From NCBI GenBank assembly GCA_018268695.1, contig JAFDWD010000801.1, forward strand, positions 1-11,405: a stretch of 11,405 nucleotides of DNA, written 5' to 3'. The notes beneath the pieces are model-generated. The model was not told the origin of the DNA and ran no database searches. It saw only the letters and a program-made list of their open reading frames with translations. Made by a program: the position numbers and the translations under genes. The DNA comes from Actinomycetota bacterium. GTDB lineage: Bacteria > Actinomycetota > Thermoleophilia > Solirubrobacterales > 70-9. Position 1 is the stretch's first letter; each line of letters begins with the position of its first letter. Shown piece after piece: positions 2,848-11,123 of the stretch.

Positions 2848-3258
2848 TTGATCATCAGCAGGAGCTCGGCGGCTGTGACCGCTCCGGGCAACCCCGACTG
2901 GTTCACCGGCGAGGTCTACGCCGACATCGTCGCCTCCCCCGCCCCGCCTTGGCGCACCGCCGCCGCGAACGTCCACTTCGCCCCCGGCGCCCGCACGGCC
3001 TGGCACACCCATCCGCTCGGCCAGACGATCTTCGTCACCGAGGGCATCGGCCTCTGCCAGCGCGAGGGCGGGCCGATCGAGGAGATCCGCCCCGGCGACA
3101 GCGTCTTCTTCGAGCCGGGCGAGAACCACTGGCACGGTGCCGCCCCCGACCGCTTCATGGTCCACCTCGCGATGCAGGAGATGGACGAGAGCGGCAGCGT
3201 CGTGAGCTGGGGCCGGCACGTGACCGACGCCGAGTACAGCGCCGCCCGCGGGTCCTAG
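2848..3258 (+). CDS. Cupin protein of the (R)-hydroxynitrile-lyase-like family
   Basis: A 136-residue single-domain cupin. Motif 1 (residues 48-59) gives H53, H55 and Q59, and motif 2 (GDSVFFEPGENHWHG, 83-97) gives H94 with H96 nearby: a 3-His/1-Gln metal site. From memory, the Mn-dependent cupin hydroxynitrile lyase of Granulicella tundricola uses H53, H55, Q59 and H94 and has A40, V42 and Q110 in its pocket. With the TTG start all seven residues fall at the same numbers here. This supports TTG at 2848, which has GGGAG at 2837-2841. The in-frame GTG at 2875, with AGGAG at 2860-2864, is the alternative but would drop the family's N-terminal IxRS segment. Cyanohydrin cleavage is only a family possibility; the physiological substrate of most members is unknown. 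Confidence 0.88.
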   Translation: MIISRSSAAVTAPGNPDWFTGEVYADIVASPAPPWRTAAANVHFAPGARTAWHTHPLGQTIFVTEGIGLCQREGGPIEEIRPGDSVFFEPGENHWHGAAPDRFMVHLAMQEMDESGSVVSWGRHVTDAEYSAARGS

Positions 3259-7060: not shown

Positions 7061-8089
7061 ATGGCCGTCATCGAAGGGGAGTCGCGCCGACTACTTGACA
7101 TCATCCAGACCCAGGGGGAGATCGCGGCGGGCGATCTCGATCAGGATCGGGCGATGCAGTTGATCGTCCATCGCGTGCCCGCGCTGATCGGCGCCGACGG
7201 CGCACTGATCGACTCTCCTGTCGGCGACCGCCTCGTCTTCCGCGCCGGCTCCGGCGTCGAGGAGCGGGTGATCGGCCTCGAATACCCCCGCGCCGACAGC
7301 CTCTCCGGGCGCGCCCTGGAGCGCCGCGAGGTGCTGATCAGCAGCGACACCAAGCTAGATCCGCGGGTGGAAGCGGAGGCCTGCCGGAAGCTCGGGGCGC
7401 GCTCGCTGCTCTGCGCGCCCTTGTTGCACCGCGACGAGGAGCTCGGCTCGCTGACCGCCTTCTCCGCCCTCCCCCACGCCTTCGACGAGGGCGACCGCGA
7501 GGCGATCGACCTGATCGGCCGCTCGCTCTCCGCGCACCTTCACCACGCGGCGGGCTTCTCCCTCGCCTCCCACCAGAGCCGCCACGACCACCTGACCGGC
7601 CTGCAGAACCGCCGCGCCTACGAGTCGCGCCTCGAACAGGAGACCTCGAAGGCGGCCCGGACGGACGATGACCTGGCGCTCTGCCTGCTCGACCTCGACC
7701 GCTTCAAGGCGGTCAACGACCACTTCGGCCACGTCGTCGGCGACGACGTGCTGCGGGCCGTCGCCCGGGGCTTCCGCAACTGCCGGCTGCACGACGAGGC
7801 CTTCCGGATCGGCGGCGACGAGTTCGCCGTCGTCTTCCCCGGCGGCGACGAGCGGGCGGCGCGGACGGCGATCCGGCGGATGGTCGACGAGCTCGACCTC
7901 ACCGACCTGACCCGGCGCGGGGTCCGCTTCGGGGTCTCGTTCGGGATCGCCGCCGGCAAAACCGACCCGAGGGCCCTCCACGCCGCCGCCGACACCGAGC
8001 TGACCGCGGCCAAGCGCCTCGGTCGTCGCCCCCGCCGTGCACCCGACCCGGTTCTCTCGGGCGACGGCCGGGTAAGACTCAGTGCGTGA
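7061..8089 (+). CDS. GAF-GGDEF diguanylate cyclase
   Basis: A 342-residue soluble protein. Residues about 25-165 form a GAF-like sensor (LIVHRVPALIGADGALI, then SLLCAPLLHRDEELGSLTAFS). A GGDEF domain follows from DHLTGLQNRR at 176-185, with the metal and nucleotide segment LLDLDRFKAVNDHFGHVVGDDVL at about 209-231 and an intact GGDEF at 251-255. RLHD at 242-245, five residues before GGDEF, matches the RxxD inhibitory site, so both cyclase activity (2 GTP to c-di-GMP) and product feedback are expected. The C-terminal helix reads AADTELTAAKRLG, with Thr where a Tyr is common. There is no transmembrane helix, so the GAF probably senses a cytoplasmic signal. Its TGA overlaps the GTG of the dehydrogenase gene, which means co-transcription and coupled translation. 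Confidence 0.93.
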   Translation: MAVIEGESRRLLDIIQTQGEIAAGDLDQDRAMQLIVHRVPALIGADGALIDSPVGDRLVFRAGSGVEERVIGLEYPRADSLSGRALERREVLISSDTKLDPRVEAEACRKLGARSLLCAPLLHRDEELGSLTAFSALPHAFDEGDREAIDLIGRSLSAHLHHAAGFSLASHQSRHDHLTGLQNRRAYESRLEQETSKAARTDDDLALCLLDLDRFKAVNDHFGHVVGDDVLRAVARGFRNCRLHDEAFRIGGDEFAVVFPGGDERAARTAIRRMVDELDLTDLTRRGVRFGVSFGIAAGKTDPRALHAAADTELTAAKRLGRRPRRAPDPVLSGDGRVRLSA

Positions 8090-9429
8090 GGCGCCTATTC
8101 CCGGCGGTCATCCTGATGCTGCTCCTGACCGCGTGCGGTTCGGGTAGCTCGAGCACGGGATCGACCTCCGCGTCGGGCACGACCGCCTCCCCGGTCGGCG
8201 GCGGGCGCGAACTGGTGACGCTCGCCGTTCCCGCCGCGATGCGCGGCGGCGAGCTCTCCGAACCCCACCGGCTGAGCGTGCCGAAGGGCTGGAAGGCGAG
8301 CGTCTGGGCGCGGCCGGAAGGGGCCCGGATGATGGCGATCACGCCGGAAGGGAACCTGCTCGTGAGCAGGCCGAGCGACGGCGCGGTGATCGAACTTTCC
8401 GGCGGCGCCGAGGCGACGCAGGAAAAGGTCGTCCTCGCGGGTCTCGAATCCCCGCAGGGCCTGGCGTTCGGGAAACGCGGCGGGGAATCGATCCTCTACG
8501 TAGGCGAGTCGGACGAGATCGACGCCTACCCCTGGCTCGGCGGCGGCGAGGTCGGCGCGCGGGAGACCATCGCCCCGAACCTGCCCGACGAAGAACCGGC
8601 GGGCGACGACATCCACCGCCAGAAGGACGTCGTGGTCGGGGCGGACGGGCGGATCTACTTCGACGTCGGCAGCTCCTCCAACGCCTCCCCGGTCGACCGC
8701 ACCTACGACCCGCCGCGTGGGGTGATCGACTCGGTCGGGCCCTCAGGCGGGCCGGTGAAGGTCGTGATGCGCGGCGTGCGCAACGGCGAGGGGCTGGCGT
8801 TGGCTCCCGACGGCACGGTCTGGACCGCGGTCAACAACCGCGACGAAATCCCCTACCCGTTCCACGGCGCGCTCGGCGGTCACGAAGAAGCGTTCGGCGA
8901 AGTGATCCCCGACTACGTCGACAACCATCCGGTGGATGAGGTGGCGCCGGTGACCCAGGGCCGTGACCTCGGCTGGCCGCTCTGCAATCCCGAACAGGGT
9001 CAGAACACGCCACCCGGCTCCCTCGCCGACGTGCCGCTGATCCCCGACTCGGTGACGAATCCGGGCGGCAAGGCCCTCGACTGCTCGAAGCTGGCCCCGA
9101 TCGAGGTCGGGATCCCCGCCCACTCCGCCCCGCTCGGGATGTCGTTCCTCGAGGGCACGAAGGTGCCGGCGCCCTGGTCGGGCGGCGCGGTGGTCGCCGC
9201 CCACGGATCCTGGGACCGCCAGGAACCCCGCGCGCCCGCGGTCCTCTGGATGCGTTGGGACGAAGAGAAGCGGACCCTCGAGCCGGCCCAGGTCCTCGTC
9301 TCGGGCTTCCAGGACGAAGACGGCGAACGCTGGGGCCGCCCCGTCGACGTGGTTCCGGGACCGGAAGGCGCGCTATTCGTGAGCGACGACACGGCCGGGG
9401 CGGTTTACAAGCTGACGCCACCGGGGTGA
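8086..9429 (+). CDS. PQQ-type glucose/sorbosone dehydrogenase, lipoprotein
   Basis: A 447-residue protein. Residues 1-16 are a lipoprotein signal with lipobox LTAC at 14-17, then a Ser/Thr/Gly linker, so the mature protein is membrane-anchored outside the cytoplasm. The rest is a six-bladed beta-propeller of the sugar/sorbosone dehydrogenase family: ESPQGLAFG, HRQKDVVVGADGRIYF (H177), VRNGEGLALAPDGTVWTAV (R232-N233), DLGWPLCNP, HGSWDR (373-378) and RWGRPVDV (R415, R418). His, Arg-Asn and Arg occur in the order used by soluble PQQ glucose dehydrogenase for catalysis and PQQ contact; exact equivalence is inference. Oxidation of an aldose or related sugar is likely, electron acceptor unknown. 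No PQQ synthesis genes are in the window. The start is the GTG overlapping the cyclase stop. Confidence 0.9.
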   Translation: MRRLFPAVILMLLLTACGSGSSSTGSTSASGTTASPVGGGRELVTLAVPAAMRGGELSEPHRLSVPKGWKASVWARPEGARMMAITPEGNLLVSRPSDGAVIELSGGAEATQEKVVLAGLESPQGLAFGKRGGESILYVGESDEIDAYPWLGGGEVGARETIAPNLPDEEPAGDDIHRQKDVVVGADGRIYFDVGSSSNASPVDRTYDPPRGVIDSVGPSGGPVKVVMRGVRNGEGLALAPDGTVWTAVNNRDEIPYPFHGALGGHEEAFGEVIPDYVDNHPVDEVAPVTQGRDLGWPLCNPEQGQNTPPGSLADVPLIPDSVTNPGGKALDCSKLAPIEVGIPAHSAPLGMSFLEGTKVPAPWSGGAVVAAHGSWDRQEPRAPAVLWMRWDEEKRTLEPAQVLVSGFQDEDGERWGRPVDVVPGPEGALFVSDDTAGAVYKLTPPG

Positions 9430-9478
9430 GTAGAAGGATGGCGTTGTGCCGGCGGGGGTGGCAGTCCTAGAAGCGGTG

Positions 9479-9532
9479 CCTGGGCGTCTCATGGAGGTCC
9501 TGGCAGGCTGTGACCTCCATGAGACGCCCAGG
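9479..9532. terminator. Perfect 21-bp hairpin downstream of the dehydrogenase gene
   Basis: Bases 9479-9499 and 9512-9532 are exact reverse complements around a 12-base loop. The arm begins CCTGGGCGTCTCATGG. It starts 50 bases after the dehydrogenase stop. No T-run follows, so it may block 3' exonucleases or work as a U-less terminator. Its arm length equals that of the hairpin at 3282-3326, and both contain GTCTC. The stretch 9430-9478 before it holds nothing I recognise. Confidence 0.55.
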
Positions 9533-9560
9533 ACGTGAGGGTTCCGTGAAGGTCTTGTGA

Positions 9561-9580
9561 CGGAGAGCGTGGGATTCGAA
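9561..9580 (-). other. Possible tRNA-Ser 3'-end remnant
   Basis: The minus strand of 9561-9580 reads TTCGAATCCCACGCTCTCCG, which has the layout of a tRNA end: 7-base T-loop, 5-base T-stem 3' strand, 7-base acceptor 3' strand and a discriminator G. The next three bases are TCA, close to CCA. The matching 5' T-stem (GTGGG) and acceptor 5' strand are absent, so no tRNA is encoded. The TTCGAA part also recurs in the adjacent repeat array, so the likeness may come from the array instead. Confidence 0.3.
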
Positions 9581-9830
9581 CGATCAGGAATCTGCCGTGT
9601 TCCTTATCCGCCCATACGACGGATCTCGAACACCGCAAGGGTCTGCGGGGTTCGAAAAGGGCGCCATACGACCATTACGAACCACGGAGATCATTGCGTG
9701 GTTCGAAACTTCGGTCATGGCGAAGTAAGGAACCAGGGAAGATCTTGCGGTGTTCGAAACCTGGCGTATGGGCAGGTAAGGAACAGCGCAGATCCCTGAC
9801 CGTTCGGGGCCCGGCGTACGAACCGGGCCC
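9578..9830. repeat. Tandem 51-bp palindromic repeat array, four units plus a GC-rich end hairpin
   Basis: Four hairpin units of 33 bases lie at 9599-9631, 9650-9682, 9701-9733 and 9752-9784, separated by 18-base spacers, so starts are exactly 51 bases apart. Each begins GTTC and ends GAAC. Inner stems differ but pair: ATCCG/CGGAT, a weaker four-of-five pairing in unit 2, ACTTCG/CGAAGT and ACCTG/CAGGT. The loop carries CATACG or its complement. Unit 1 is inverted relative to units 2-4. Spacers are themselves partly palindromic, for example CGAACCACG/CGTGGTTCG around 9678-9705. A half-unit precedes (GAAC at 9578-9581), and an 8-bp hairpin, GGGCCCGG/CCGGGCCC (9807-9830), closes the array about 50 bases on. 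It is probably a structured RNA or protein-binding DNA array. It fills much of the 512-base gene-free gap; 9831-9850 holds nothing recognised. Confidence 0.85.
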
Positions 9831-9850
9831 AGCCGTCTCCCCCACATCCC

Positions 9851-9927
9851 CGGCCGTCTCGGCCACGGCCACAGCCAGCCAGGGCCGTGGCCGAGACGGC
9901 CGCGCTCGCCGACCCCGCCTTGCGTCC
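9851..9927 (-). repeat. Dispersed GC-rich inverted repeat, copy B
   Basis: CGGCCGTCTCGGCCACGGCC (9851-9870) is the exact reverse complement of 9883-9902, a perfect 20-bp stem with a 12-base loop. It is followed on + by 13 variable bases and CGCCTTGCGTCC (9916-9927). The same box, arm and loop segment ACAGCCAG form copy A at 3263-3368. Both copies sit within about 20 bases of a minus-strand stop codon with the box nearest the gene, so in the transcript the order is stop, GGACGCAAGGCG, hairpin. No U-run follows. Confidence 0.75.
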
Positions 9928-9941
9928 TTTTCCGGCCCCCG

Positions 9942-11123
9942 CTACCCCCCCGGCCGCTCCACCCGATAGTCGTCCGCCACCTGATGGACGTAGGCGAGGA
10001 CGTCGGGGTCGAGGCGGTCGCGGCCCTGGCGGTCGTAGCGGCGGACGAAGAAGGCGCCGAAGCCGAGCCAGAAGAGGAGGCCGACGGCGGTGGCGATCAG
10101 GCCCTCGGCGAGGCCGGCGTCGGCGCGTGCTTCCAGGTAGAGGATCGAGCGCACGCCGCCGAGGATCTGGCGCAGCGGATCGGCGTGGCTGACCGCGGCG
10201 AAGGCATCCGGCAGCGCCTGGATCGGCACCGTCCCGCCCGCCGAGGCGAGGCCGACGTAGACGAAGACCAGCAGCCCGACCAGCTGCCCCGGCGTGCCGA
10301 GCACGGCGAAGAGGGAGAGCGTGCCGATCGCGACCGTCGCCGCCCCGAACCAGCCGTAGACCCAGAGAAGCAGGGGCGATGGCGCGTCCATGCCGAGGAT
10401 GAGGCCGGCGACGAAGAGGAAGACGGCGACGAGGATGCCGGTCAGGACGACGGCCATCCCCCACTTCGCCAGCAGCGTCTGCCAGCGGCTGATCAGCGCC
10501 GGCCTCGCCATCGACCAGCGCGAGCCGATCTCGGTCGGCGCGAAGCCGAGCGCGCCGTCGAGGAAGGAGTTGACGATGGTCGCGCCGATGAACCCGCTCA
10601 TCAGGATCAGCAGCGCGGTGTAGAAGGCGCTCAGGCCGAGCGCCGCCTTCGCGGGCAACGGCCGGTAGACGGAGGTCTTCACCTCGATCTGGCCGTGGGA
10701 CCCTGCTTCGACGGCCGGCTGCAGGACGCCGGCGGCGAGGCTCGCCCCCTCGGTCCCGGCTCGCTGGTTGGTGAGCAGCCGCGCGGTCGGCGCCCCGCCG
10801 CCGGTGCCGCCCGGCACGACCAGGGTCGCGTAAGAGGCGCCGCGGTCCATCCGGTCGCGCGCGGCCGCCATCGACTCGACGTGGATCGCAAGCTTTTCGG
10901 TCACTTCCGGCGAGCCCAACAGACCTTTCTCCACGGCCCGCCCGGCCGGCGAGTCCGTCCTCACCAGAGAGACGGGAAGCCCGTGCATATGGTTGAGGGG
11001 ATCGACCGCGGAGCCGATGTAGAGGGCGGTCATCAGGCCGATCAGGATCGCGCCGACGACGATCGGGGCCGCCCAGACGGGCCGCTGCCTGAGGAGATCC
11101 AGTGCCCGCATGCGTTTAGGCAT
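9942..11123 (-). CDS. DUF3533/YhgE-Pip-like (ABC-2 type) membrane protein
   Basis: A 393-residue integral membrane protein. One N-terminal helix (about 17-38) is followed by an extracytoplasmic domain of roughly 120 residues and then five helices at about 162-185, 220-243, 251-276, 279-300 and 340-361. This is the layout of DUF3533 and ABC-2-type permease-like proteins such as YhgE/Pip and SNG1. The loop has the LVRTDSPAGRAV and ASYATLVVPGG segments typical of the group, and DPLRQILGGVRSILYL lies before the last helix. A cytoplasmic basic tail ends the protein. No ATPase gene is in the window, so it either works without one or has a distant partner; the substrate is unknown. ATGs at 11123 and 11111 are both possible starts, and neither has a clear Shine-Dalgarno. 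It is divergent from the secreted-protein gene across 50 bases. Confidence 0.85.
   Translation of the reverse strand: MPKRMRALDLLRQRPVWAAPIVVGAILIGLMTALYIGSAVDPLNHMHGLPVSLVRTDSPAGRAVEKGLLGSPEVTEKLAIHVESMAAARDRMDRGASYATLVVPGGTGGGAPTARLLTNQRAGTEGASLAAGVLQPAVEAGSHGQIEVKTSVYRPLPAKAALGLSAFYTALLILMSGFIGATIVNSFLDGALGFAPTEIGSRWSMARPALISRWQTLLAKWGMAVVLTGILVAVFLFVAGLILGMDAPSPLLLWVYGWFGAATVAIGTLSLFAVLGTPGQLVGLLVFVYVGLASAGGTVPIQALPDAFAAVSHADPLRQILGGVRSILYLEARADAGLAEGLIATAVGLLFWLGFGAFFVRRYDRQGRDRLDPDVLAYVHQVADDYRVERPGG

Follow-up and report, generated by a model that had tools for sequence, protein, structure and literature searches.

The stretch of DNA analysed here (the window, 11,405 nucleotides) contains two convergent genes with a gap of palindromic sequence between their stop codons (Table 1). 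The nearest named relatives of the first gene (8086-9429) come from Solirubrobacterales MAGs. In the gap, four hairpin units of 33 nt with GTTC/GAAC ends follow one another at steps of 51, 51, and 51 bases, and this array is the middle of a larger element of about 480 bases (approximately 9453-9933), which lies between two inverted long hairpins, designated here the A and B frames. A sequence-only reading of the same DNA had described a stand-alone array at 9578..9830. The array is located there, but the two frame hairpins were missed, and the array is only one possible interior of a dispersed element, since 24 of the 36 framed elements described below have no such unit.

Table 1. Positions of the features in the window, with the basis of each assignment
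Feature	Position	Strand	Basis or remark
Flanking gene 1, relatives named glucose/arabinose dehydrogenase	8086..9429	+	PF22807 precomputed; no Pfam match in our own profile search
Flanking gene 2, ABC-2 type membrane protein, convergent with gene 1	9942..11123	-	gene calls, profile search
Whole element, outer limits estimated	9453..9933	.	where conservation stops
Outer A terminus CGGGGGTGGCAGTCCTAGAAGCGGTGC	9453..9479	+	end conservation
A frame hairpin, 21-bp perfect stem, 12-nt loop CTGGCAGGCTGT	9479..9532	+	inverted-repeat search; 74.3 bits
Large internal inverted repeat, left arm, 63 nt	9577..9639	.	84% complementary to 9744-9806
Hairpin unit 1 (inverted), 33 nt	9599..9631	-	unit pattern match
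Hairpin unit 2, inner stem weak, 33 nt	9650..9682	+	fold energy, unit listing
Hairpin unit 3, 33 nt	9701..9733	+	unit pattern match
Hairpin unit 4, 33 nt	9752..9784	+	unit pattern match
Large internal inverted repeat, right arm, 63 nt	9744..9806	.	pairs with 9577-9639
Closing GC hairpin GGGCCCGG-CGTACGAA-CCGGGCCC	9807..9830	+	like sequence at the same place in several G001 copies
B frame hairpin, 20-bp perfect stem, minus-strand loop CTGGCTGGCTGT, one base off the A loop	9851..9902	-	inverted-repeat search; 77.8 bits
Outer B terminus, inward reading GGAAAAGGACGCAAGGCGGGGTCGGCGAGCG	9903..9933	-	end conservation
Decayed second B-type copy, 20-bp palindrome (arm CCCCTGCACGCTTGTCTCGC) in loop	3263..3378	-	not found by R1 at E 0.01

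Frames and hairpin units of the element

The limits of the element were estimated from 25 A and 24 B ends in the window and in one genome rich in copies (G001, see below), among which conservation is lost about 27 nt outside the A frames and about 30 nt outside the B frames. Read inward, the A and B frames have in common GTCTC, a loop CTGGCnGGCTGT, and GAGAC; because they share this core and loop, the whole element is a nested inverted repeat, although the outermost 25-30 nt differ between the two types. Frame stems are 14-25 bp long with at most two mismatches, and the frames contain 62-85% G+C. The A frame of the window is equalled in score and in G+C content by four A-type matches in the G001 sample. 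In both frames of the window, the motif CGTC lies inside the paired stem and not in an unpaired tag, as judged by eye. In the following, R1 denotes a covariance model built from the frame hairpin. The decayed second B copy of the window is located between convergent genes that end at 3258 and 3384, and it has kept the outer B terminus. It should also be mentioned that a frame hairpin of G001 (L007, 1363-1416) joins the arms of two stem types, which suggests recombination inside the loop.

The four hairpins at exact 51-base steps had been noticed in the sequence-only reading, together with the inversion of one unit and a GC-rich hairpin that ends the array, and each of these statements is borne out. 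The unit pattern (at most three mismatches) finds three of the four units in the window and none in 200 dinucleotide shuffles of it, unit 1 lies on the minus strand, and the closing hairpin occupies the expected place. Two further statements are correct in part: CATACG or CGTATG is found in three of the four units, but unit 3 has TCATGG; and the inner stems, which were said to vary while staying paired, are mostly paired, but that of unit 2 is paired poorly (-7.0 kcal/mol). Units 1, 3, and 4 are hybrids, in which the outer arms (GTTCGAAA/GTTCGAGA and TAAGGAAC) are unpaired at positions 5-7 and the inner stem is paired. Some unit centres are self-complementary (CATATG, CCTATAGG). The four units overlap the internal 63-nt inverted repeat, and the 281-nt array region folds better than all 200 of its shuffles on either strand (z -10.7 and -13.7). 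Elsewhere, units do not generally keep to the 51-bp step: seven distinct neighbouring pairs are spaced by 49, 50, 50, 51, 58, 62, and 100 bp. No Rfam family reaches its gathering score in the window, in agreement with the earlier statement that no described element could be recognised, and the open-licence papers searched contain no description of such repeats for this lineage.

Several familiar kinds of sequence were considered for the array and rejected. It is open on both strands (9557-9799 on the plus strand and 9584-9847 on the minus strand, 80 and 87 codons), and a coding array was set aside because neither frame is called by the codon-model caller and the spacings elsewhere are mostly not multiples of three. 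A CRISPR array was discarded because of the inverted unit, the partly palindromic nature of the spacers, and the absence of cas families from the Pfam matches of the ten window proteins. On the left flank, CGTTCGAATCCCACGCTCTCC (9567-9587, minus strand; TTCGAATCCCACG) has what we take to be a resemblance to the T arm and acceptor end of a tRNA, and similar letters recur in the G001 copies; a tRNA remnant was rejected at this place, as ARAGORN finds no tRNA.

Copies, interiors, and sites in related genomes

Homologues of the units were sought in related genomes and were found. An exact-pattern scan of genome contigs matched a single contig, from the Actinomycetota MAG SZAS-15 (G001), in which both frames and two units lie between two same-strand genes. 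We take these genes to be secY and adk. In the G001 genome, where 40 of the 248 candidate stretches were scored, blastn matches the element at least 128 times. Across the family, 14 of 50 genomes give a blastn match of any kind: six carriers (G001, G033, G038, G039, G041, and G043), each with at least 22 to 50 matches from 13 scored candidates, and eight further genomes with one or two matches each (E 4e-5 to 9e-4). Across the order, R1 matches 8 of 232 genomes, namely the six carriers, in each of which all 24 scored candidates match, and two non-carriers (G047 and G224) with a single weak match of 33 to 36 bits. Of 399 genomes drawn evenly from the class, 6 contain R1 matches: four belong to the six carriers, and the other two have one weak match each, again of 33 to 36 bits. 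When each carrier is scored alone, at least 138 to 150 of 150 scored candidates match R1, and the true numbers are uncertain, as palindromes can match on both strands. At E 0.01, 30 R1 hairpins, including a weak one within a called gene, are present in 314 kb of G001 and 8 in 386 kb of G041. The assemblies are fragmented, often at the repeats.

The same genomes can be compared by their long-stem hairpins (at least 13 pairs after mismatch penalty). In noncoding DNA, the carriers have 103 of these in 106.1 kb, of which 72 come from G001 and G041 and 31 from the remaining four carriers, and the non-carriers (ten contigs of nine genomes, G047 and G224 included) have 3 in 33.8 kb. The corresponding counts in coding DNA are 22 (990.7 kb) and 3 (353.9 kb). 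The contigs are not random, those of the carriers having been fetched partly for holding matches, which raises the densities, and those of the non-carriers for weak chance matches. A base shuffle of 354 kb yields no long-stem hairpin.

The ends of the element recur from copy to copy and the interiors differ. The 36 elements that have both ends span 222-764 bp from loop to loop, and under a limit of two mismatches per arm 24 of them have no 33-nt unit, 8 have one, 3 have two, and the window alone has four; an additional copy, L010, contains about three units by eye. Interiors without the unit consist of other palindromes, such as GTTGATGGGCCGAAAAC...GTTTTCGGCCCATCAAC, and both this palindrome and the 33-nt unit also occur in gaps that have no frame.

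With respect to neighbouring genes, frames are present in 15 of the 131 convergent gaps, in 11 of the 735 tandem gaps, and in 1 of the 134 divergent gaps. Convergent gaps are enriched over the rest (15/131 against 12/869, p = 1.2e-7), and divergent gaps do not differ significantly from all other gaps (p = 0.24). These counts are of R1 matches of at least 44 bits with called genes on both sides, the genes being called with a home-made codon-model caller; left out are the window, five matches lacking a called gene on both sides, a 35.6-bit match inside a called gene, and a 33.9-bit match in a convergent gap.

Ten element sites of G001 and G041 were queried against the other carriers and seven were compared, the other three having no carrier ortholog among the matches listed. 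At the site of the window, the stop-to-stop distance is 512 bp in the window, -4 in G043 and G033, where the stops overlap in CTAG, and 45 in G039; in G041 only gene 2 was found, with a lone palindrome of another family behind it, and the searches found no gene 2 in G038 and neither gene in G001. At a second site (G001 C281), the stops are 488 bp apart; the distance here is -4 for G038 and G039 and 36 for G041. Both flanking genes retain their ends to within about three codons. It should be mentioned that at both sites the relatives with a clean empty site (G043 and G033; G038 and G039) have convergent genes that overlap in CTAG stops. At four of the seven sites (C251:35519, C240:33255, C240:45777, and C251:13538), frames are also found in at least one of G033, G039, and G043, by loop search or by eye. 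Two of these, C251:35519 and C240:45777, were compared side by side: the interiors differ at both, and at C240:45777 the A-B order in G043 is reversed relative to G001. At the remaining three sites (C281:16895, C268:22484, and G041 C87:115354), no other compared species has frames. The set of sites is made up of clear insertions plus old or repeatedly used sites (hot spots), or sites kept for function.

Proposed spread of the element and pairing of its arms

The comparisons show inverted frames around a variable interior, a high copy number in six related genomes, a position mostly in gaps at gene 3' ends with an excess between convergent genes, and empty sites in relatives. We favour, with a probability of roughly 0.7, a non-autonomous interspersed mosaic of palindromic modules that is tolerated at gene 3' ends. 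Copies would be spread in trans by a candidate enzyme that recognises the folded frame hairpins, interiors would grow, shrink, and recombine through their palindromes, and elements would survive chiefly at gene 3' ends, where insertion harms least. Frames in this position may form a two-way transcription barrier or protect mRNA 3' ends; for REPs, roles in transcription end and mRNA 3' protection have been hypothesised (PMC3733652). The sites shared between species at four of seven places, and the fact that unit-bearing interiors are a minority, lower our confidence in the mosaic explanation slightly.

As to the means of spread, the transposase search covered Y1_Tnp (PF01797), which is found in none of the six carriers and in 3 of the 50 family genomes, none of them a carrier. 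No autonomous copy was seen in the sampled sequence, in which frame pairs 150-800 bp apart were sought. Nor was a target-site duplication detected: shared words are not in excess between the outer flanks of 36 elements, whose boundaries are only approximate (mean 4.33, against 4.51 when the flanks are re-dealt). A plasmid or phage origin was rejected because the element has no blastn match in plasmids or phages, and a viral origin because one A and one B pattern have no exact match in viral contigs.

In the sequence-only reading, compensatory changes in the unit stems were held to imply selection on structure. The covariation itself is real, in that the unit stems covary above both re-dealt and slid controls. 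In 41 units selected partly by pairing, the inner stem is paired in 90% of cells, against 49% re-dealt, and the covariation score is 1.008, against 0.253. In a set blind to pairing, in which units were selected by their outer arms only and which contains 22 distinct inner arms, 84% of the inner pairs are Watson-Crick, against 38% with the halves re-dealt (maximum 51% in 500). The frames behave similarly; 33 of them (32 distinct, selected partly by pairing) have two-sided changes at 12 of 22 pairs, amounting to 91 cells, and are paired in 94% of cells, against 81% re-dealt. The kinds of change in the 41 units show no excess over shuffles, either in the inner stem (two-sided pairs 5 against 5.0, further pair types 13 against 13.4) or in the whole stem (9 against 7.8 and 19 against 18.3).

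Selection on RNA helices should leave more G-U than A-C pairs. Among the 1406 stem pairs of 74 distinct frames read in gene-sense orientation, a set selected partly by pairing in that at least 15 of 19 pairs were required, 9 are G-T and 34 are A-C, 13 of the 34 at one position. Since G-U pairs are not in excess in the frame stems on the gene-sense strand, a cause at the DNA level, be it recognition of a cruciform or of a folded single strand, or correction of imperfect palindromes by template switching, is at least as good an explanation as a functional RNA. The two counts swap on the opposite strand, so that a constraint on an antisense RNA may still be at work. In view of these counts, and of the dispersed nature of the palindrome, the step from covariation to selection on structure is not supported. 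In other words, strong covariation in dispersed palindromes is by itself no proof of a functional RNA.

The alternative that survives best is that the complementarity is a mutational by-product, and we give this close to an even chance, if a little short of it. Template switching at quasipalindromes is described as extending the identity between imperfect arms (PMC3820800, PMC7202029); one arm would be copied onto the other, and complementarity would arise without structural selection. This would agree with the self-complementary centres of certain units, with the L007 frame and its arms of two stem types, and with the near absence of G-U intermediates (a single one-sided cell among 659 in the A1 set, and the 9 G-T against 34 A-C pairs), but both the A1 set and the 74 frames were picked partly by pairing, and an antisense strand would give more G-U than A-C. 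Against it are also the hybrid units, which retain three unpaired outer positions beside a paired inner stem, and the fixed length of the unit (8-17-8), the spacer being 17 nt in 47 of 48 distinct arm-only matches when 15-19 nt were allowed.

Somewhat doubtful, in our judgement, is the alternative that the frames serve the host as two-way terminators or as protectors of mRNA 3' ends, so that selection would keep them behind stop codons, any mobility being incidental or a thing of the past. The enrichment in convergent gaps, the long and nearly perfect stems, and the sharing of frames between species at four of the seven compared sites are all in its favour, as is the distance of the nearest frame from the stop codon in the G001 and G041 sample, which is 21-71 bp in 11 of 12 convergent gaps and 120 bp in the remaining one. 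However, the distance between a frame and the stop it faces is 53-968 bp in G033, G038, and G039, 116 of the 131 convergent gaps have no frame of at least 44 bits, and overlapping stops suffice in relatives. Unlike Rho-independent terminators, neither frame of the window is followed by a T-run, the longest run of T or A in 9453-9933 being 4. A terminator scan of the window finds none; it takes loops of 3-8 nt only, and the 12-nt frame loops are thus beyond its judgement.

At longer odds, we may speculate that a mobilising or maintaining system acts on folded single-stranded DNA, reading the near-fixed 12-nt frame loop together with fixed-length modules whose inner stems are free in sequence but complementary, and placing the mosaics at convergent junctions, perhaps at CTAG overlaps. 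A functional structured RNA or protein-binding array, as proposed in the sequence-only reading, is very improbable: the fold is strong on both strands and the inner stems are paired well above their controls in the partly pairing-selected and the unbiased sets alike, but two-sided changes and pair types match those of shuffles, two thirds of the framed elements (24/36) have no unit, and the frames show no gene-sense G-U excess.

Likeness to known repeat families

The mosaic element is built like BOX and BIME, and its likeness to BOX lies in the arrangement of the modules. Pneumococcal BOX (boxA-boxB(n)-boxC) also has an end module on either side of a variable number of short modules; it folds tightly, is in excess between convergent genes, clusters with other repeats, and has large copies that are open on both strands, as the array of the window is (PMC3049150). 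BOX elements are held to be parasitic (PMC3049150). Unlike BOX as described there, the present element belongs to another lineage, each of its ends is a long hairpin with a near-fixed asymmetric loop, its inner modules are palindromes with variable paired stems, and unrelated palindromes can fill its interior.

Like REPs and BIMEs (PMC3733652, PMC2817692), the repeats are high-copy extragenic palindromes in opposite orientations, mostly downstream of genes, and are joined as mosaics. REPs are 20-40 bp long (PMC3733652), whereas the frames here are about 52 nt and enclose 222-764 bp from loop to loop. There is, moreover, no unpaired GTAG or CGTC tag at the end of the palindrome, CGTC being within the frame stem, and the RAYT (Y1_Tnp) gene is absent from all six carriers; REPs of the CGTC type are likewise described as being without a dedicated transposase (PMC3733652). 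MITEs, as defined in PMC3049150, resemble the element in being short and highly paired, with a high copy number and empty sites in relatives, and perhaps also in their inverted ends, the A and B frames being inverted and alike in loop and core but different in their outermost 25-30 nt. They are AT-rich (PMC3049150), whereas the element is G+C-rich; it may also differ from them in that the Y1_Tnp search revealed no parent transposon and that no target-site duplication was detected in the 36 elements with approximate ends.

Tagged REPs are reported from more than 80 species in 8 phyla, mostly Proteobacteria, and the word Actinobacteria is absent from the main text of that source (PMC3733652). 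In a G+C-rich actinobacterial lineage, a burst of palindromes that is limited to one clade and is not accompanied by a Y1 transposase offers a clean case in which the spread of repeats and the complementarity of their arms can be studied.

The same genomes contain other palindromes. The GTTGATGGGCCGAAAAC...GTTTTCGGCCCATCAAC palindrome, 49 nt long with a variable centre (L067 2322-2370 in G041, L219 13568-13616 in G038, and L144 17129-17191 in G001), stands alone in gaps of G041 and G038 and is located within frames in G001. G041 also has a second frame-like family, GGCGCG...CCCTCAT-loop-ATGAGGG...CGCGCC with a loop near GCTTCGGCTGGTT, whose members occur in opposite orientations within one gap (L111 8657-8709 and 8953-9013), and similar pairs are found elsewhere.
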